A DNA stretch of 64,000 nucleotides from Rhodococcus xishaensis (GTDB lineage Bacteria > Actinomycetota > Actinomycetes > Mycobacteriales > Mycobacteriaceae), in contig NZ_RKLO01000004.1 of NCBI RefSeq assembly GCF_004011825.1, positions 302,783 to 366,782 on the forward strand. Direction: 5' to 3'. Within the stretch, counting starts at the first letter, position 1. Each line of letters starts with the position of its first letter. Of the stretch, positions 30,506 to 39,085 are shown in pieces. The notes under the pieces are model-generated. The model searched no databases, was not told where the DNA came from, and saw only the letters and a program-made list of their open reading frames with translations. Position numbers and translations under genes: made by a program.

Positions 30506-30561
30506 CCCATTCCCATGAGATTCCCATGAGCTCTTCTTGAACAAACGCCCAGAAAACCCTT

Positions 30562-30588
30562 CTGCAACGATCCTGCAACGGATAGAGT
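30562..30588 (+). promoter_or_regulatory. Promoter/operator of Ig-like pair 1 (TGCAA direct repeat)
   Basis: CTGCAA repeated 11 bases apart (30562 and 30573) is followed by a -10-like TAGAGT at 30583. The same arrangement recurs before pair 2 at 34284. Conservation between copies supports function; the regulator is unknown. Confidence 0.5.
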
Positions 30589-30656
30589 GCAGCCTTGTGT
30601 GATGCATCACCACGCCAGCCCGCCGGGTCGGGAAGGCGGGTTCCCAAGGAGGATTA

Positions 30657-32405
30657 GTGTTTTCGTCTACCCTTCGCAGAGTCGCGAGTCCGGTACTCGC
30701 TGCAGGTTCTGTGATCGCAGTGTTACTCGGTGCCGGTGTCGGCACCGCCGCGGCATCTGAACCGCCGCCGTCGAGCAATACCTACAACGAGGACCAGTTG
30801 GGGGTGACGAAGGAGGTCGTCGGCAGCAATGTGGTGCACCCCGGTGACGTCGTCACCTACAAGACAACGGTCAGGCACCGCAACAACGGCATCCGGTTGT
30901 CGATCTCCGAGATCCGTGACATCCCCCCGGCCGGGTTCGAGCTGATCCGCAACAGTGTGAAGGTCACGTACGTCAACTGGACCGACAAGTACAACATCGC
31001 CTACAACTCCGACGGCGGTATGACCGTTACGTGCAAGGACCGGTGCACCTTCCTGGTCGGTGGTTTCGACCTCGTCGACGGCGAGACGGTGGTCGTCGAG
31101 GCGTCCTACCGGGTGCCGGCCAATGCGCAGTTCGGGGACTACGACAGCGGCACGCTGGTCGGAGTGAGGACCTGGGGAGACCCCCACCGCGGCGGTAACC
31201 CGTTCGGTGTGTTTGTGCGGGTCGAGGATCCGAACGTGAACACGACGACGACGCTGGATGCGCCGGCGGCGGCGAAGACCGGTGAGCCGGCCACGCTGAC
31301 GGCCACCCTGGATCCGTCGAACGCGGACGGCCGGGTGCAGTTCAAGGACGGTGGCGCCGATATCGGTTCGCCGGTCGATGTGGTGGGCGGTGTCGCGACA
31401 CTGTCGCACACGTTCGACACGGTCGGCGCGCACGAGATCACCGCGAACTTCCTGGCGGACTCGGGCTTCTACGACTCGACGTCGGCGCCGGCGACGGTGG
31501 ATGTGACCGCCGATACCTCCACGGCGCTGCAGGTTCCGGCTACCGCCTTGGTCGGTGAGGACGTGACCGCGACGGCATCGATCACTCCGGATACGGCCAC
31601 GGGCCGGGTGCAGTTCAAGGTCGACGGCGAGAACTACGGTCAGCCGGTCGCTGTCGTGGACGGCGCGGCGAGCCTCACCCGTTCCTTCCCGGAGGCCTTG
31701 TCACACAGCATCACCGCCGAATTCGCCGGCACCGGTGGCTACCTCAACTCCGTTTCCTCGCCCGCCGAGATCACCGTCAACGATCCCGACTGGGGCACCA
31801 CCACCACGGTCGTCGAGCCGGTGACCGCGGTGACCGGCACGCCGGTCAACCTGTCGGCGACGGTGCTGCCGATCCCGTCCGGTGGTGACGTGCGGTTCCT
31901 GGTCGACGGTGTCGAGGTCGGGACCGCGCCGGTGGGTACCGCCGACGGTGTCGCGGTGCTGCCGCACACCTTCGAGGTCGCGGGCACGGCGAACGTGGTC
32001 GCCGAGTTCACCGGCACCGCCGGGTTCGAGCCGTCGGCGTCGGCCGGATTCACTGTCACCGTCACCGATCCCGAGCCTGCGCGCACGGAGACCCGGACCC
32101 TGCTCGAGGTGAGCGGTAAGACCGCGGTCGGCCAGCAGGTGACATTCACCGCGACCGTCGATCCCGGCACCGCCGATGGCACGGTCGAGTTCCGCTCGGG
32201 GACCACGGTGCTGGGCACCGCCGAGGTCGTCGACGGTGTCGCGACGCTGACCCACAGCTTCGACGTGGTCGGCACCCACGCGGTGACGGCGAGCTTCGTC
32301 GGCGGTCCGGACTTCGCGGACTCGGTGTCGGGCCCGACGGTCCTCACCGTCGGTGAGGATTCCGGACCGGGCCCGCTGGGCTCGCTCGAGGGACTCTTCG
32401 GCTGA
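30657..32405 (+). CDS. Secreted Ig-like repeat protein A1
   Basis: This 582-aa secreted protein starts at a GTG with AAGGAGG four bases upstream. The signal peptide (1-33) is basic SSTLRRVA, a hydrophobic core and a GTAAA cut site. Residues 45-190 form a DUF11/isopeptide-like beta domain (VTKEVVGSNVVHPGDVVTYK, IPPAGFELIRNSV) with two cysteines in TCKDRCTF. Four bacterial Ig-like (Big_3-type) repeats start near 195, 285, 379 and 471, each with G-V-A-x-L-x-H-x-F and ITAxF motifs. The C-terminus is LGSLEGLFG, with no sortase motif or membrane anchor. It pairs with B1, 32 bases downstream. A surface or adhesion role is inferred from the architecture. Confidence 0.85.
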   Translation: MFSSTLRRVASPVLAAGSVIAVLLGAGVGTAAASEPPPSSNTYNEDQLGVTKEVVGSNVVHPGDVVTYKTTVRHRNNGIRLSISEIRDIPPAGFELIRNSVKVTYVNWTDKYNIAYNSDGGMTVTCKDRCTFLVGGFDLVDGETVVVEASYRVPANAQFGDYDSGTLVGVRTWGDPHRGGNPFGVFVRVEDPNVNTTTTLDAPAAAKTGEPATLTATLDPSNADGRVQFKDGGADIGSPVDVVGGVATLSHTFDTVGAHEITANFLADSGFYDSTSAPATVDVTADTSTALQVPATALVGEDVTATASITPDTATGRVQFKVDGENYGQPVAVVDGAASLTRSFPEALSHSITAEFAGTGGYLNSVSSPAEITVNDPDWGTTTTVVEPVTAVTGTPVNLSATVLPIPSGGDVRFLVDGVEVGTAPVGTADGVAVLPHTFEVAGTANVVAEFTGTAGFEPSASAGFTVTVTDPEPARTETRTLLEVSGKTAVGQQVTFTATVDPGTADGTVEFRSGTTVLGTAEVVDGVATLTHSFDVVGTHAVTASFVGGPDFADSVSGPTVLTVGEDSGPGPLGSLEGLFG

Positions 32406-32539
32406 GTATCCGAAACCACCATCAATCAGGAGAAATTGTGCAGCAGAGCAGAATTCGCCGGCTCGCCGCTCCGATCGGTATCGGAGCTCTGGTCGCCGGC
32501 CTCACCATGACGGGCGGAATACCCGCTCAAGCAGCACCG
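31235..32539 (+). repeat. Identical tract, copy 1 (about 1305 bp)
   Basis: The sequence matches 34949-36253 without a visible difference. It covers all four Ig repeats of the A gene, the A-B spacer and the B signal peptide. Flanking parts of both copies have clearly diverged. Encoded proteins on both strands are identical across it. Confidence 0.9.
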
Positions 32540-34153
32540 GTAACGACCACCTTCAAGACCACCTGCCAGGTGACACCGTCGGCGGTGGCGGGTCCTGTCA
32601 CGGAATCACAGGAAGCCTCGGCAACCATCGATGCGCCGGCCAGCGTCGACGCCGGTGAGGACTTCGAGATCGCCGTCCAGCCGGGGCCGGTCGGCTTCCC
32701 CGACTCGGCGTCGGGCGCATCGATCCAGAACGTCTCTCGTATCAAGCTAGACATAGAAATTCCGGAGAACGCGGAGTATCTGGGTGCCGAGGTGGTGCCA
32801 GGTACGTCGGTGGGACTGAGCGGCGTCGCCCCGAACGTCCTGCGGATCAACGACAGTGGACAGGTGGATCCGAACGGTCCCTACCTGCGACTGTCCGGCA
32901 ACAACGAGGTCATCGGTAACAGCCCGTCGTCGAGCATCAACAGCGAGGGCGGCATCAAGGTCGTCGCGACCGGCAAGAACATCGATGGCAGCACCAACCC
33001 CGACGGCTACACCTACTTCCAGCTCCCGCAGGTCAAGGTTCTGTTAAAGGCCGGCGAGTCGGGTGCAGTCGACCTCAAGCTGCGTTCCAGCGGGGGTGCA
33101 GGAAATTTCAACGACGACAAGAACTTCCTGACGTTCCTTCCCAAGGCGAGCCTCATCATCACCGCATGGGCACCGACGCGATGCAGCCCGCGCGACAGTG
33201 CGGGCGGCCCGCTGAACGAGGGTGCGGGCCCGCTGGCATCGGTGCAGATCATCGAGGCGGACAAGGAGACCACCACGACGATCTCGGGTCCGGATGCGGC
33301 GAAGAACGGCGCCCCGGTCACCTTGACCGCGAACATCGACCCGGCGCCGTCGGGTGGCACCGTCGAGTTCTCTGACTGGGGCACCCCGATCGGGGAGGCC
33401 GACGTGGTCGACGGTTCGGCGTCGATTGAGCACACGTTCGACTCCGATGGCGATCACTCGATCACGGCCGTGTTCTCCGGCAGCGACGGCTTCATCGGCT
33501 CCACCTCGGCGCCGAAGACGATCAACGTCAGCACCGACGACGTCGCCACCAGCATCGCGATCGTCTCGCCGGACAAGGCGTACGTGGACCAGGACGTGAA
33601 CCTGTCCGCGCAGGTGACCCCTGCCGTGCAGGGTGGCACGGTCGAGTTCGTCGTCGACGGTCAGACCCTGACCGCCGAGGTCGGCGCCGACGGTGCGGCG
33701 ATCGCGCCGTACACGTTCACCAACACCGGTACGCACCGGGTGATCGCTCGCTACTCCGGCACCGATGGCTTCGCTGGATCTGTGTCGCCGGCCTTCCCGG
33801 TGAGCGTGACCAACGCGCCGCCGGAGGACGTGCTCACCACGACCACGCTGGATCCGGTCGGCACGGTGACTCCGGGCAGCCCGGTTGTTCTGGTCGCGAC
33901 CGTCGATCCGGCGAACGCGAACGGTAAGGTCCAGTTCAAGCTCGGTAACGCGCCGCTCGGTGCGCCGGTCGACGTTGTCGACGGCGTCGCGACGCTGCCG
34001 ACGACGTTCTTGAACGCCGGAACCTACAGTGTCACAGCCGAATTCGTTGCATTCGCTGGATTCGTCGATTCGGCTTCGGAGCCACAGGAATTGACGGTGC
34101 CCGAGCCACCAACGACCAGCCCGTTCGGCAGCCTCGAGGGATTCGGTTCCTGA
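32438..34153 (+). CDS. Secreted Ig-like repeat protein B1
   Basis: This 571-aa secreted protein starts at a GTG with AGGAG five bases upstream. The signal peptide (1-32) ends IPAQA before APVTTT. Residues 33-265 form a domain I do not recognise: it opens with a Cys, has ATIDAPASVDAGEDFEIAVQ, GLSGVAPNVLRIND and LRLSGNNEVIGN, and closes with WAPTRCSPRD. The two cysteines could form a disulfide. Three Ig-like repeats follow (about 275, 370 and 465). The tail is PFGSLEGFGS. It is probably co-expressed with A1 and may form a complex with it at the cell surface. Confidence 0.82.
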   Translation: MQQSRIRRLAAPIGIGALVAGLTMTGGIPAQAAPVTTTFKTTCQVTPSAVAGPVTESQEASATIDAPASVDAGEDFEIAVQPGPVGFPDSASGASIQNVSRIKLDIEIPENAEYLGAEVVPGTSVGLSGVAPNVLRINDSGQVDPNGPYLRLSGNNEVIGNSPSSSINSEGGIKVVATGKNIDGSTNPDGYTYFQLPQVKVLLKAGESGAVDLKLRSSGGAGNFNDDKNFLTFLPKASLIITAWAPTRCSPRDSAGGPLNEGAGPLASVQIIEADKETTTTISGPDAAKNGAPVTLTANIDPAPSGGTVEFSDWGTPIGEADVVDGSASIEHTFDSDGDHSITAVFSGSDGFIGSTSAPKTINVSTDDVATSIAIVSPDKAYVDQDVNLSAQVTPAVQGGTVEFVVDGQTLTAEVGADGAAIAPYTFTNTGTHRVIARYSGTDGFAGSVSPAFPVSVTNAPPEDVLTTTTLDPVGTVTPGSPVVLVATVDPANANGKVQFKLGNAPLGAPVDVVDGVATLPTTFLNAGTYSVTAEFVAFAGFVDSASEPQELTVPEPPTTSPFGSLEGFGS

Positions 34154-34199
34154 GCATTCAGTTCCTGAGCACGGATAGCTGCCACAAGCAGCACTGACC

Positions 34200-34236
34200 C
34201 CGGGGGTGTCATCGCAGACTGCGGTGACACCCCCGG
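34200..34236 (+). terminator. Hairpin terminator after pair 1
   Basis: A 17-bp stem (34200-34216 with 34220-34236, one G-U) surrounds a 3-base loop. There is no T-run. The equivalent lies at 37929-37975. Confidence 0.7.
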
Positions 34237-34283
34237 TGTCTCATGGTCGGACGTCTAACTGAACGGATGACCAGAAAACGCCT

Positions 34284-34310
34284 TTGCAACGAACTTGCAA
34301 AGGCTAGGGT
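34284..34310 (+). promoter_or_regulatory. Promoter/operator of Ig-like pair 2
   Basis: TTGCAA is repeated 11 bases apart (34284 and 34295), followed by TAGGGT at 34305. It is the counterpart of the element before pair 1. Confidence 0.5.
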
Positions 34311-34373
34311 GCAGCTTTGTGTGATGCATACAACACCGCCGGGTCGGGAGGCGGGTTCCCCCAAGGAGGATGA

Positions 34374-36119
34374 GTGTTTTCGTCAACCCTGCGCAGAGTC
34401 GCGAGTCCGGTACTCGCCGCAGGCTCTGTGATCGCATTGATACTCGGTGCCGGTGTCGGCACCGCCGCGGCCGCGCCGCCGCCGCCTTCGAGCAATTCCC
34501 AGGACACGGGCAGGTTGTTGCTGACGAAGGAGGTAGTCGGCAGCAATGTGGTGAACCCCGGTGACATCGTCACCTACAAGACAACGGTCAGGAAGCACAA
34601 CGACGACCAGGTCCGGTTGTCGATCGCCCATCTGCGGGACATGCCCCCGGCTGGGTTCGAGCTGATCCGCAGCAGTGTGAAGGTCACGTACACCACGTGG
34701 ACCGACAAGCACAACATCGCCTACAACTCCGACGGCGGCGTGACCGCGACGTGCAAGGACCGGTGCACCTTCCTGGTCGGTGGTTTCGACCTCGAGAACA
34801 ACGAGACGCTGACCCTCGAGGCGTCCTACCGGGTGCCGGCCAATGCGCAGTTCGGAGACTACGACTCCGGCGCATTCGCCGAGGTCCGGGTGTGGGACGA
34901 CGCGGGCAGCAACCCGTTCGGTGTGTGGGTGCGGGTCGAGGATCCGACCGTGAACACGACGACGACGCTGGATGCGCCGGCGGCGGCGAAGACCGGTGAG
35001 CCGGCCACGCTGACGGCCACCCTGGATCCGTCGAACGCGGACGGCCGGGTGCAGTTCAAGGACGGTGGCGCCGATATCGGTTCGCCGGTCGATGTGGTGG
35101 GCGGTGTCGCGACACTGTCGCACACGTTCGACACGGTCGGCGCGCACGAGATCACCGCGAACTTCCTGGCGGACTCGGGCTTCTACGACTCGACGTCGGC
35201 GCCGGCGACGGTGGATGTGACCGCCGATACCTCCACGGCGCTGCAGGTTCCGGCTACCGCCTTGGTCGGTGAGGACGTGACCGCGACGGCATCGATCACT
35301 CCGGATACGGCCACGGGCCGGGTGCAGTTCAAGGTCGACGGCGAGAACTACGGTCAGCCGGTCGCTGTCGTGGACGGCGCGGCGAGCCTCACCCGTTCCT
35401 TCCCGGAGGCCTTGTCACACAGCATCACCGCCGAATTCGCCGGCACCGGTGGCTACCTCAACTCCGTTTCCTCGCCCGCCGAGATCACCGTCAACGATCC
35501 CGACTGGGGCACCACCACCACGGTCGTCGAGCCGGTGACCGCGGTGACCGGCACGCCGGTCAACCTGTCGGCGACGGTGCTGCCGATCCCGTCCGGTGGT
35601 GACGTGCGGTTCCTGGTCGACGGTGTCGAGGTCGGGACCGCGCCGGTGGGTACCGCCGACGGTGTCGCGGTGCTGCCGCACACCTTCGAGGTCGCGGGCA
35701 CGGCGAACGTGGTCGCCGAGTTCACCGGCACCGCCGGGTTCGAGCCGTCGGCGTCGGCCGGATTCACTGTCACCGTCACCGATCCCGAGCCTGCGCGCAC
35801 GGAGACCCGGACCCTGCTCGAGGTGAGCGGTAAGACCGCGGTCGGCCAGCAGGTGACATTCACCGCGACCGTCGATCCCGGCACCGCCGATGGCACGGTC
35901 GAGTTCCGCTCGGGGACCACGGTGCTGGGCACCGCCGAGGTCGTCGACGGTGTCGCGACGCTGACCCACAGCTTCGACGTGGTCGGCACCCACGCGGTGA
36001 CGGCGAGCTTCGTCGGCGGTCCGGACTTCGCGGACTCGGTGTCGGGCCCGACGGTCCTCACCGTCGGTGAGGATTCCGGACCGGGCCCGCTGGGCTCGCT
36101 CGAGGGACTCTTCGGCTGA
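34374..36119 (+). CDS. Secreted Ig-like repeat protein A2
   Basis: This 581-aa paralogue of A1 has the same GTG start, AAGGAGG site and signal peptide type (ends GTAAA). The DUF11-like domain (about 45-190) differs from A1 at many positions, such as LRDMPPAGFELIRSSV and DLENNETLTLEAS in place of DLVDGETVVVEAS. From residue 194 to the end it is identical to A1, including all four Ig repeats and the LGSLEGLFG tail. The abrupt switch from diverged to identical marks a recombination boundary near base 34949. B2 follows after 32 bases. The function is inferred as for A1. Confidence 0.85.
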   Translation: MFSSTLRRVASPVLAAGSVIALILGAGVGTAAAAPPPPSSNSQDTGRLLLTKEVVGSNVVNPGDIVTYKTTVRKHNDDQVRLSIAHLRDMPPAGFELIRSSVKVTYTTWTDKHNIAYNSDGGVTATCKDRCTFLVGGFDLENNETLTLEASYRVPANAQFGDYDSGAFAEVRVWDDAGSNPFGVWVRVEDPTVNTTTTLDAPAAAKTGEPATLTATLDPSNADGRVQFKDGGADIGSPVDVVGGVATLSHTFDTVGAHEITANFLADSGFYDSTSAPATVDVTADTSTALQVPATALVGEDVTATASITPDTATGRVQFKVDGENYGQPVAVVDGAASLTRSFPEALSHSITAEFAGTGGYLNSVSSPAEITVNDPDWGTTTTVVEPVTAVTGTPVNLSATVLPIPSGGDVRFLVDGVEVGTAPVGTADGVAVLPHTFEVAGTANVVAEFTGTAGFEPSASAGFTVTVTDPEPARTETRTLLEVSGKTAVGQQVTFTATVDPGTADGTVEFRSGTTVLGTAEVVDGVATLTHSFDVVGTHAVTASFVGGPDFADSVSGPTVLTVGEDSGPGPLGSLEGLFG

Positions 36120-36253
36120 GTATCCGAAACCACCATCAATCAGGAGAAATTGTGCAGCAGAGCAGAATTCGCCGGCTCGCCGCTCCGATCGGTATCGGAG
36201 CTCTGGTCGCCGGCCTCACCATGACGGGCGGAATACCCGCTCAAGCAGCACCG
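34949..36253 (+). repeat. Identical tract, copy 2 (about 1305 bp)
   Basis: This is the counterpart of 31235-32539. The first mismatches on either side are at 34948 (c versus a) and 36254 (a versus g). Confidence 0.9.
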
Positions 36254-37882
36254 ATAACGACGTCGTTCAAGACGGCATGTCTCGCCACACCGAATACTTC
36301 GTTGGCTGGTCCGGAGGCGCTCGTGGAGACCGGTTCGGTCATCGTCGACGCGCCGGCCAGTGTCAACGCCGGTGAGGAGTTCGACGTCACCATCCAGCCC
36401 GGGCCGATCGGCTTCCCGAGAGACGTGTCGATTGCAACCATCTCGGACGTCTCTCGGGTCAAGATCGACGTCGATGTTCCGCAGAACGCGGAGTTGGTAA
36501 GCGCCGAGGTCGTGCCGTTCACGTCAGTGGGGCTGAGCGGCGTCGCCCCGAACGTCCTGCGGGTCGACAGCAACGGGAACGTGGATCCGAACGGCTCCCT
36601 CCTGCGGCTGTCCGGCAACAACGAGGTCATCGGGAACGGCCCGTCGTCGAGCACCACCAGTACGGGCGGAATCAGGGTCGTCGCGACTGGAAAGGATATC
36701 GACGGCAACCCCACCTCCAACGGCTACACCTACTTCCAGCTCCCGCAGGTCAAGGCACGATTGAAGGCTGGCGACTCGGGCACCGTCGAGCTCAAGCTGC
36801 GCACCAGCGGTGCCGCAGGGAACTGGAACGACAACAAGAACTTCCTGACGTTCACGGCGAAGCTATCCGCGCCACTGGTCGGCACCGTGTGGGCGCCGAC
36901 CCGTTGCACCCCGCGGAATGCTGCGAACGCGGGTTCACCCCTCAATGAGGGTGCGGGCCCGCTGGCATCGGTGCCGATCATCGAGGCTGACAGGGAGACC
37001 ACCACGACGATCTCGGGTCCGGACGCGGCGAAGATCGACGCCCCGGTCACCCTGACCGCGAACATCGACCCGGCGCCGTCGGGTGGCACAGTGGAGTTCC
37101 TGGACTGGGGCACCCCGATCGGTGAGGCCGACGTGGTCGACGGTTCGGCGTCGATCGAGCACGCATTCGACTCCGAGGGCGATCACTCGATCACGGCCGT
37201 GTTCTCCGGCAGCGACGGCTTCACCGGATCCACCTCGGGGCCGAAGACGATCAACGTCAGCACCGACAACGTTGCCACCAGCATCGCGGTGGAGTCGCCG
37301 GACAAGGCGTACGTGGGCCAGGACGTGAACCTGTCCGCGCAGGTGACCCCTGCCGTGCAGGGTGGCACGGTCGAGTTCGTCGTCGACGGTCAGACCCTGA
37401 CCGCCGAGGTCGGCTCGGATGGTGCGGCAATCGCGCCGTACACGTTCACCAGCACTGGTACGCACCGGGTGATCGCGCGGTACTCGGGTACCGATGGCTT
37501 CTTGGGATCGGTCTCGCCGGCCTTCCCGGTGAGCGTGACCAATGCGCCGCCGGCCGACGTGCTCACCACGACCACGCTGGCTCCGGTCGGTACGGTGCCC
37601 AACGGCAGCCCGGTGACGCTGGTCGCGACCGTCGATCCGGCGAACGCGAACGGCAAGGTCCAGTTCAAGCTCGGTAACGCGCCGCTCGGTGCGCCGGTCG
37701 ACGTCGTCGACGGCGTCGCGACGCTACCGACGACGTTCTTGAACGCCGGAACCTACAGTGTCACCGCCGAATTCGTCGCATCCGCCGGGTTCGTCGATTC
37801 GGCTTCGGAGCCACAGGAACTGGTGGTGCCCGAGCCACCGACGACCAACCCGTTCGGTAGCCTCGAGGGATTCGGTTCCTGA
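36152..37882 (+). CDS. Secreted Ig-like repeat protein B2
   Basis: This 576-aa paralogue of B1 has an identical signal peptide (residues 1-33), encoded inside the identical tract. The unrecognised N-terminal domain (33-270) is clearly related but diverged: VDAPASVNAGEEFDVTIQPG, GLSGVAPNVLRVDS and WAPTRCTPRN keep the same frame of motifs. Three Ig-like repeats follow, nearly identical to B1. The tail is PFGSLEGFGS. It carries the same two cysteine positions as B1. It is the last gene of the duplicated block and is followed by a strong hairpin. Confidence 0.82.
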   Translation: MQQSRIRRLAAPIGIGALVAGLTMTGGIPAQAAPITTSFKTACLATPNTSLAGPEALVETGSVIVDAPASVNAGEEFDVTIQPGPIGFPRDVSIATISDVSRVKIDVDVPQNAELVSAEVVPFTSVGLSGVAPNVLRVDSNGNVDPNGSLLRLSGNNEVIGNGPSSSTTSTGGIRVVATGKDIDGNPTSNGYTYFQLPQVKARLKAGDSGTVELKLRTSGAAGNWNDNKNFLTFTAKLSAPLVGTVWAPTRCTPRNAANAGSPLNEGAGPLASVPIIEADRETTTTISGPDAAKIDAPVTLTANIDPAPSGGTVEFLDWGTPIGEADVVDGSASIEHAFDSEGDHSITAVFSGSDGFTGSTSGPKTINVSTDNVATSIAVESPDKAYVGQDVNLSAQVTPAVQGGTVEFVVDGQTLTAEVGSDGAAIAPYTFTSTGTHRVIARYSGTDGFLGSVSPAFPVSVTNAPPADVLTTTTLAPVGTVPNGSPVTLVATVDPANANGKVQFKLGNAPLGAPVDVVDGVATLPTTFLNAGTYSVTAEFVASAGFVDSASEPQELVVPEPPTTNPFGSLEGFGS

Positions 37883-37928
37883 TCCTCCGGTTCCCGATCG
37901 CTGATAGCTGCCACAAGCAGCACTGACA

Positions 37929-37975
37929 ACACCGGTGGGGTGTCACCGCGGACTGCGGCGACACCCCACCGGTGT
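37929..37975 (+). terminator. Hairpin terminator after pair 2
   Basis: A 21-bp stem (37929-37949 with 37955-37975, one mismatch) surrounds loop GGACT and is followed by TTGTTCTC. Confidence 0.75.
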
Positions 37976-37996
37976 GTTGTTCTCGGGAGGAGGGAA

Positions 37997-38164: not shown

Positions 38165-39085
38165 GTGTCGATGCGTGTGAAGAGGGTTCTGTCCGGGTTT
38201 GGGGCTTGTGTCGTAACGGTTTTCGGTTCCGTGGTCGCGGTCGGAGCGGGGACGGCTCAGGCCGCGCCGGCATGCCCGGACCTGCACGTCGTCGCCATCC
38301 CGGGGACCTGGGAGACCACGACCGATCCGGGTGCGCATCGCGGTCCGGGCATGCTCGGTGCGGTCACCGATCCTCTGCCTGACTCGGTAGGCGTCGATTA
38401 CGTCACCTATGCGGCGACGGCGTTCCCGTGGGAGACCGAGGTGTACGGGGCGTCGAAACGGCAGGCCGTCGACAACGCCCGCGGGATCATCGCGGACGTT
38501 GCGCAGCGTTGCGACAACACGAACTTCGCACTCGTGGGCTACAGCCAGGGTGCGGATGCGGCAGGCGATCTGGCCGCCGAGATCGGTACCGGTCTGGGCG
38601 TGGTGCCGTCGTCGCGGATGGTTGCGGTGGGACTGCTGTCCGACCCCCGCCGGTCGGAGGGCGACACGTTGATCGGACCGCCGGTGGTGGGCAATGGTTC
38701 GGGCGGACCACGCATCGGGGGCTTCGGAATGGTCACGCCGCAGACCCGCACCTTCTGCGTGGCCGGGGACCTGTACTGCTCCACCCCCAAAGACGACTTC
38801 GTCACCCGGCTGGCCGGGTTCTTGGCGCAGAATTCGTCACCGGTGGCGCCGTTGACCGGGAAGACCATGCAGGAGGCGATGGTGATCGCGGATGATCTCA
38901 TGGCGGCCGGCGGGATGTCGGCCCTGGACGCGCAGTCGTCGGACGGCGCCAACCAGGACCGCGTCGACAGGCTCAGCGAGTTCTATGGGTCCCAGGTCCA
39001 TCAGGATTACCGGCAGTACGTCGTCGACGAAAACGGGGCGACCGCGACGTCGTGGCTGGCGAACTGGCTGAACTCCCTCGCCTGA
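38165..39085 (+). CDS. Secreted cutinase-family serine hydrolase
   Basis: This 306-aa secreted hydrolase belongs to the cutinase-like proteins (Culp) of mycolic-acid bacteria, which cleave esters and lipids. The signal peptide (1-34) ends TAQA before APACPDL. The nucleophile is S127 in VGYSQGADAAG. The acid is probably D202 in VAGDLYC, flanked by a disulfide-type Cys pair, and the histidine is probably H279 in SQVHQDY. The C-terminal 60 residues exceed the minimal cutinase fold. The GTG start at 38165 has a G-rich site upstream; ATG 38171 is possible. It follows the Ig-like cluster in the same direction but with its own promoter region. Confidence 0.85.
   Translation: MSMRVKRVLSGFGACVVTVFGSVVAVGAGTAQAAPACPDLHVVAIPGTWETTTDPGAHRGPGMLGAVTDPLPDSVGVDYVTYAATAFPWETEVYGASKRQAVDNARGIIADVAQRCDNTNFALVGYSQGADAAGDLAAEIGTGLGVVPSSRMVAVGLLSDPRRSEGDTLIGPPVVGNGSGGPRIGGFGMVTPQTRTFCVAGDLYCSTPKDDFVTRLAGFLAQNSSPVAPLTGKTMQEAMVIADDLMAAGGMSALDAQSSDGANQDRVDRLSEFYGSQVHQDYRQYVVDENGATATSWLANWLNSLA

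Follow-up and report, generated by a model that had tools for sequence, protein, structure and literature searches.

Paired secreted Ig-repeat proteins in Rhodococcus xishaensis: conserved B heads, exchangeable A heads and homogenised stalks

Why would a bacterium encode two unlike secreted proteins side by side, and keep them together when the pair is duplicated? The question is raised by four genes in a stretch of 64,000 nucleotides from Rhodococcus xishaensis (the window; G000:C17:302783-366782, in a genome of 3.7 Mb). They lie at window positions 30657-37882 in the order A1-B1-A2-B2, all on the + strand, with GTG starts and open reading frames; the labels A and B are those of the original prediction, which described a tandem locus of paired secreted proteins with immunoglobulin-like (Ig) repeats. 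Comparisons with relatives indicate that the B head and the A stalk have a common tree across species in the groups tested, and that the A head moves as a cassette, both from species to species and from one A locus to another. Within a genome the stalks tend towards homogenisation while the heads of the two copies stay different. The features on which this rests are as follows.

30657..32405, + strand: A1, 582 amino acids; leader, A-type head, four Big_3_5 Ig repeats, tail GPLGSLEGLFG
about 30759..31241, + strand: A1 head, the exchangeable domain; all-beta, pilin/adhesin-like, AlphaFold2 pLDDT (predicted local distance difference test) 86.5
about 31245-32351, + strand: the four Big_3_5 Ig repeats of A1
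31235..32539, + strand: first copy of a 1305-base-pair (bp) identical tract; A head end, A stalk, A tail, spacer, B leader
32406..32437, + strand: A1-B1 spacer, 32 bp, with AGGAG ahead of the B1 GTG, read from the sequence; the spacer of pair 2 is identical
32438..34153, + strand: B1, 571 amino acids; leader, B-type head, three Big_3_5 Ig repeats, tail FGSLEGFGS
about 32537..33271, + strand: B1 head, AlphaFold2 pLDDT 94.2; its one clear solved relative is 3LSO of Corynebacterium diphtheriae
34374..36119, + strand: A2, 581 amino acids, built like A1, with a stalk identical to the A1 stalk
about 34476-34955, + strand: A2 head, 73% amino acid identity to the A1 head
34949..36253, + strand: second copy of the 1305-bp identical tract
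36152..37882, + strand: B2, 576 amino acids, built like B1, with a stalk 92% identical to the B1 stalk
about 36251-37003, + strand: B2 head, 67% amino acid identity to the B1 head

Architecture of the locus and its conservation in relatives

The repeats belong to the Pfam family Big_3_5 (PF16640), for which A1, B1, A2 and B2 score 200.3, 145.2, 199.3 and 143.5 bits and pass the curated cut-off of 35.5; four stretches are found in each A protein (E 5.8e-60 and 1.2e-59) and three in each B protein (E 9.1e-43 and 3.1e-42). The four repeats of A are clearly unlike each other, scoring 143, 79, 60 and 69 bits on one and the same Ig1 model. Leaders were assigned by eye. The N-terminal heads match no Pfam family above its cut-off, and in the A heads the DUF11-type repeat TIGR01451 of NCBIfam passes its cut-off of 24 bits (A1 29.3, A2 26.0). 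Homology between A and B heads is not supported (hhalign probability 1.3%), nor is fusion of the two, since none of the open reading frames (ORFs) at the loci examined carries both domains at E < 1e-4. The tandem locus is confirmed by its ORFs, by Pfam and by its recurrence in relatives.

Among 151 surveyed genomes of the family, 34 have relatives of the A head and 41 have relatives of the B head. Pairing was counted from 102 A matches and from the 90 B matches down to 138 bits, weaker B matches being left out. An A match lies 1.5-2.5 kb upstream on the same strand for 22 of the 26 strong B matches (at least 255 bits), in 19 genomes, and 27 of the 32 A matches in long ORFs (at least 550 amino acids) have a B match within 8 kb. 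Three of the four strong B matches without A lie within 300 bases of a contig end on the A side (G134 twice, G081), and two of the five long A matches without B (G081:C6 and G095:C46) begin at most 311 bases from a contig start. That A-like genes stand next to B-like genes in related genomes, as had been predicted, therefore holds for the stalked forms, which do not occur mostly apart.

The order gltB, gltD, A, B and a cutinase relative is kept in 14 of the 20 fetched loci, gltB and gltD being named by eye from their translations. The R. erythropolis clade and Tomitella carry the pair at another site. The arrangement A-B-A-B is also present in the close relative Rhodococcus spongiicola LHW50502 (L089) and in the genome G110. 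The GltB encoded on contig G105:C24 is 98.8% identical. Two B genes, together with fragments of A, are present in R. marinonascens on broken contigs. A second locus, next to serS and with B and then A directly adjacent, is found in Prescottella equi, P. agglutinans, OK519, G142 and R. spongiicola. Rhodococcus sp. RD6.2 has a B-A pair at yet another site, with no serS in the surrounding 20 kb.

The duplication is not an assembly artefact, because the copies differ outside the single 1305-bp tract, by 27% of residues in the A heads and 33% in the B heads, and because A-B-A-B recurs in other genomes. An origin from mobile elements was also rejected as far as two collections reach: the N-terminal region of A (leader and head) has no tblastn match in the plasmid collection, and the B head has none in the phage collection of 50,697 records.

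Several observations speak against a strict dependence of the two partners on each other. The fourth strong B match is a B without A (G025, L087), and 67 of the 70 A matches in shorter ORFs have no B within 8 kb (three have one). In Corynebacterium, B-family genes adjoin diverged B' genes and no A head is seen, so A is not always needed.

Neighbouring B and B' genes occur in 11 of the 17 Corynebacterium genomes with a B head (the genus of G087; L116, L127-L156), which suggests that pairing of unlike heads is wider than A and B. No A-B fusion was found at these loci; one ORF of L146 has an A match of 6 bits, which is chance level. Aldersonia sp. NBC_00410 has a B gene with a single Ig repeat (L115:9480-11032) and, upstream of it, an ORF of 130 amino acids with a partial A head (20 bits), perhaps a decayed A. 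R. xishaensis itself also encodes a secreted protein of 279 amino acids with the B head only, lacking stalk and tail (L120:5001-5837; G000:C1:487117-487827), and similar short ORFs are found in R. spongiicola (L123, 279 amino acids) and G110 (L126, 289 amino acids).

Exchanged heads and homogenised stalks

The evidence for exchange comes from 15 single-pair loci compared in 105 pairs, with GltB known for 66 of them; the duplicated loci (R. xishaensis, R. spongiicola and G110) and loci with an A or B missed by ORF picking were left out. Over the 105 pairs the B head, the stalks and GltB are broadly concordant and the A head is discordant. R. triatomae and RD6.2 have identities of 0.93 in GltB, 0.92 in the B head and 0.83 in the A stalk, and their A heads are only 0.28 identical. 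Conversely, RD6.2 and Prescottella defluvii reach 0.54 in the A stalk and 0.60 in the B head, yet their A heads are 0.82 identical. A clade of R. triatomae and RD6.2 and a clade of seven Prescottella-group genomes both have a bootstrap support of 100 in the trees of A stalk and B head; the A-head data reject both in the approximately unbiased (AU) test under the simpler model LG+G4 (p 1.9e-64 and 2.3e-41 respectively), with p-values that are not blind because the two clades were picked after viewing the 15-locus comparison.

The limits of the exchanged part and some of its sources can be seen in single proteins. Along the A protein of R. triatomae the best match shifts from the gltBD A of RD6.2 to the other A of RD6.2 near residue 40 and back again near residue 200, the two positions that bound the head. 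A different locus can serve as donor: at gltBD, R. triatomae has an A head with 87% identity to that of the second A locus in RD6.2, and the A head beside serS in P. equi shares 84% identity with the one at gltBD in R. spelaei. The B head was kept while partner A heads were replaced by types of 25-46% identity.

Duplicated loci add a second process. In the window, positions 31235-32539 and 34949-36253 are 100% identical over 1305 bp, and the A stalks within one genome are 93% identical in R. spongiicola and in G110, exceeding the identity between genomes; in the A stalk tree the copies of these two genomes pair by genome. In the B stalk tree the copies of R. spongiicola, R. marinonascens and G110 each group with those of their own genome. 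The B head tree groups by copy across species: B1 of R. xishaensis with B1 of R. spongiicola, B2 with B2, and B1 of G110 with one B of R. marinonascens. Judged from these alignments and trees, the window gives clear evidence of gene conversion in the A stalk and B leader, and three relatives show it visibly in their B stalks. The original prediction was right about the duplication of the pair and missed the main point, which is that the stalks are homogenised, the heads are kept distinct and the A head is mobile.

This account does not fit all of the data equally well. Homogenisation of the B stalk is weak in R. xishaensis, where B1 and B2 are 0.924 identical and its B2 and that of R. spongiicola are 0.920 identical, and its two B stalks fall into no common clade. 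Between G110 and R. marinonascens only one of the two B copies pairs, the second B genes staying apart, and some supports in the trees of B heads and B stalks are just 54-95. The A stalk of G142 is out of step, with 0.63-0.68 to other Prescottella compared with 0.83-0.90 for the B stalk; the exchange may reach beyond the head here, or the A stalk may simply evolve faster. Selection on the heads is also less uniform than a picture of steady change would suggest. In crude Nei-Gojobori estimates with recombination not removed, the ratio of non-synonymous to synonymous substitution rates (dN/dS) of the A head is 0.04-0.40 in close relatives that have not exchanged it, which is purifying selection, and the R. 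erythropolis clade has a single A head that is 97-99% conserved. Diversification is therefore not constant. Ratios of about 0.8-1.1 are limited to the copies of R. xishaensis and R. spongiicola and to the exchanged pair R. triatomae and RD6.2 (0.87). Constant positive selection on the head is thus not supported, and exchange accounts for more of the change than point mutation; the elevated dS of some Prescottella A heads likewise indicates import rather than mutation.

Tails, upstream blocks and neighbouring genes

A short tail resembling GSLxxLFG(S) is present in 41 of the 44 aligned A and B proteins, ending as GSLEGLFG in A and GSLEGFGS in B of the window, and none of the 44 has an LPxT[GA] sorting motif within its last 60 residues. 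Tail triplets (GSL/GSV, LGS/LGT or FGS/FGT in the last ten residues) were counted in the window and at the loci L069-L126. They occur in 50 of 53 signal-bearing Ig-repeat ORFs, C proteins included, in 20 of 85 signal-bearing ORFs classed as non-Ig by a crude filter, and in 6 of 338 ORFs with neither feature, a distribution which rules out a motif of every secreted protein; on manual reading, 18 of the 20 prove to be A, B or C genes overlooked by the filter. The tail is a candidate anchor, and possibly a signal for retention in the envelope. It is also present on an ORF of 306 amino acids without Ig repeats by the same filter (L102:15797-16714).

Each pair is flanked by similar elements, and the pairs are followed by a cutinase gene.

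30563..30584, + strand: conserved promoter-type block of pair 1 (TGCAACGANCNTGCAANGGNTA), from the upstream alignment of nine A genes; putative promoter
34285..34306, + strand: conserved promoter-type block of pair 2, from the same alignment and a genome pattern search
34196..34240, + strand: terminator-type hairpin after pair 1, -40.0 kcal/mol, z -5.6, lacking a T run
37925..37978, + strand: terminator-type hairpin after pair 2, -45.9 kcal/mol, z -8.0
38165..39085, + strand: secreted cutinase-family protein (Pfam Cutinase, E 2.5e-14), a conserved neighbour downstream of A-B and probably a unit separate from the pairs

The nine A genes were found by a start-codon pattern in eight chosen sequences, of which L086 yielded none. 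With up to two mismatches, TGCAACGANCNTGCAANGGNTA occurs in the whole genome at two sites only, 30563 and 34285, and the reversed-pattern control gave none. The wider block CAGAAAAC...TGTGATG around it is common to R. spongiicola and five A genes of the Prescottella group. At 30550-30610 and 34272-34332, two TGCAA(C/A)G direct repeats lie 5' of a TAGRGT-like -10 element, and this block upstream of A may be an operator. The original prediction gave each copy its own promoter, leader, spacer and terminator; blocks, leaders, 32-bp spacers and hairpins are present in both pairs, and it is the regulatory functions that generic scans fail to support. A sigma-70 consensus scan detected no promoter in the window, and a terminator scan gave seven sites where 4.0 are expected by chance, just one of them (37961) at the hairpins after B. 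Because of these scans the terminators stay putative, and it is from the conservation of the upstream block that we infer a promoter.

Outside the window, at G000:C17:402338-421000 (L118, L119), eight secreted Ig-repeat genes are flanked by serS on one side and an acyltransferase gene on the other, identities that were assigned by eye from the translations. A B-headed gene stands first and a second one near the end, with C-headed genes in tandem between and after them; in R. spongiicola, the gene after the first B of the serS cluster scores as A-headed. One C-headed gene (L119:2507-4364) seems to be interrupted, with an ORF of 534 amino acids lacking the usual tail and a separate ORF of 214 amino acids with one Ig repeat, and would be either a pseudogene or an assembly error.

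Possible function and comparison with known systems

What might a pair with one constant and one exchangeable head be for? Our leading proposal, on which the arguments seem evenly balanced, is a two-gene system for surface recognition or adhesion. A and B would be made from one operon and exported, each as a rod with an N-terminal head on a Big_3_5 stalk, and the short tail would probably hold the rod in the mycolic-acid envelope. B would contribute a constant head, and the adhesin-type A head would set what the pair recognises, whether cell, surface, glycan or phage. The A head is the likely carrier of specificity because it is the part that is traded. The main route for new A heads would be homologous recombination within the conserved leader and the first part of the stalk, with another species or a second A locus as donor. 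Where the pair is duplicated, as in the window, gene conversion would keep A stalks, spacer and B leaders alike, with the heads staying different; through duplication and stalk conversion the strain would carry two A heads and two B heads on a common scaffold, and one cell could display two specificities at once. The commonness of the A head fold counts against this proposal, in that the fold is no proof of adhesion.

An alternative is that A, with B, is a phage receptor, and that exchange of the head serves escape from phages or predators by removing a binding site and brings no new ligand. A receptor under attack would show replacement of a whole domain on a conserved stalk, as seen here, and two different heads would then be a form of hedging. 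We consider this unlikely, because nothing links the locus to phages (the B head lacks a match in the phage records searched), titles and abstract openings of the papers found on Rhodococcus phage receptors name no such protein, and the R. erythropolis clade has conserved heads. A DUF3542 gene is reported as the one most strongly up-regulated when R. erythropolis is infected by phage (PMC10986025).

An obligate complex, in which the two heads dock and form one binding site or one fibre, was the idea behind the original prediction that A and B work as a unit. A conserved gene pair is what the counts above support. A physical unit is improbable, since the B head stays constant while A heads as little as 25-46% identical replace each other, the fold of the A type is widespread, 3LSO comes only 19th for the A head, and B occurs without A in L087. 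With A heads as different as those that B tolerates, the two heads are unlikely to fit each other closely, and any cooperation between A and B would run through shared residues, the stalks or co-display.

That the rods are merely space-filling material of the outer coat, paired for dosage and with heads diversified by drift and hitch-hiking, is very improbable: long Ig stalks and several paralogues per genome would suit it, but drift leaves unexplained why heads are replaced near the domain ends with the flanks retained, and why the two copies keep their head identity while the stalks are converted.

A bolder form of the recognition proposal, which we regard as doubtful, is a dedicated system of mycolic-acid bacteria in which A heads come from a pool common to species and loci and the B head is constant, conversion keeping the carriers uniform and selection keeping the heads different. 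Every strain would then display a head set of its own, which would be a surface identity code in partner, phage or host recognition. To our knowledge, surface, partner and phage recognition by Rhodococcus-type bacteria is poorly known. The locus is syntenic in many species, with a clear split between constant and exchanged head. It offers a candidate specificity domain of about 160 residues (the A head), whose role in adhesion or phage specificity becomes testable, and a clear-cut natural example of stalks being converted while heads are retained.

Among known proteins the closest to B is 3LSO, a putative membrane anchored protein of C. diphtheriae whose structure is solved and whose title states no function. 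The B head matches it by sequence profile and by fold, the sequence match covering part of the head only (profile positions 21-122 of 240). Unlike the two-gene pair of the window, 3LSO consists of a single chain, which has 445 residues in the structure library; its rank for the A head comes from a second structure comparison. Also close are the pilin and adhesin domains of isopeptide type from Gram-positive bacteria (PrgB, EbpB, BcpA, RrgB, UafA), at a sequence identity of 9-19%. The RrgB-type isopeptide pilin domain (TIGR04226) scores 28.1 bits in A1, below its cut-off of 30, and A2 is not listed; a candidate isopeptide lysine (TKEVV) is present in type-I A heads only and missing in the other head types. 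Sortase-anchored MSCRAMM and pilin proteins carry a C-terminal LPXTG, which A and B of the window type lack, and no sortase or pilus genes were noticed by eye in the ORF lists of the loci, where no family search was made.

Periscope proteins, as described in PMC9704523, are surface proteins that resemble A and B in their rod-like stalk of repeated domains. Their repeats are highly identical and vary in number, whereas the A repeats of the window are unlike each other and the variation lies in the head. The open-access literature yielded no description of the locus, or of one constant head paired with one exchangeable head in bacteria of this kind, in agreement with the original prediction that no system with this layout had been described. 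Rods with heads, Ig stalks and mosaic antigens are already known; the two-gene pair of constant and exchangeable heads is, within that literature, not previously described.

Mosaic surface antigens, such as the M proteins of streptococci and the pilin variants of Neisseria, have a variable exposed domain on a conserved scaffold and are changed by recombination. The window proteins share with them a recombining variable domain on a conserved scaffold. They differ in that the variable domain belongs to one of two paired proteins, in mycolic-acid bacteria, and is exchanged across species and loci.

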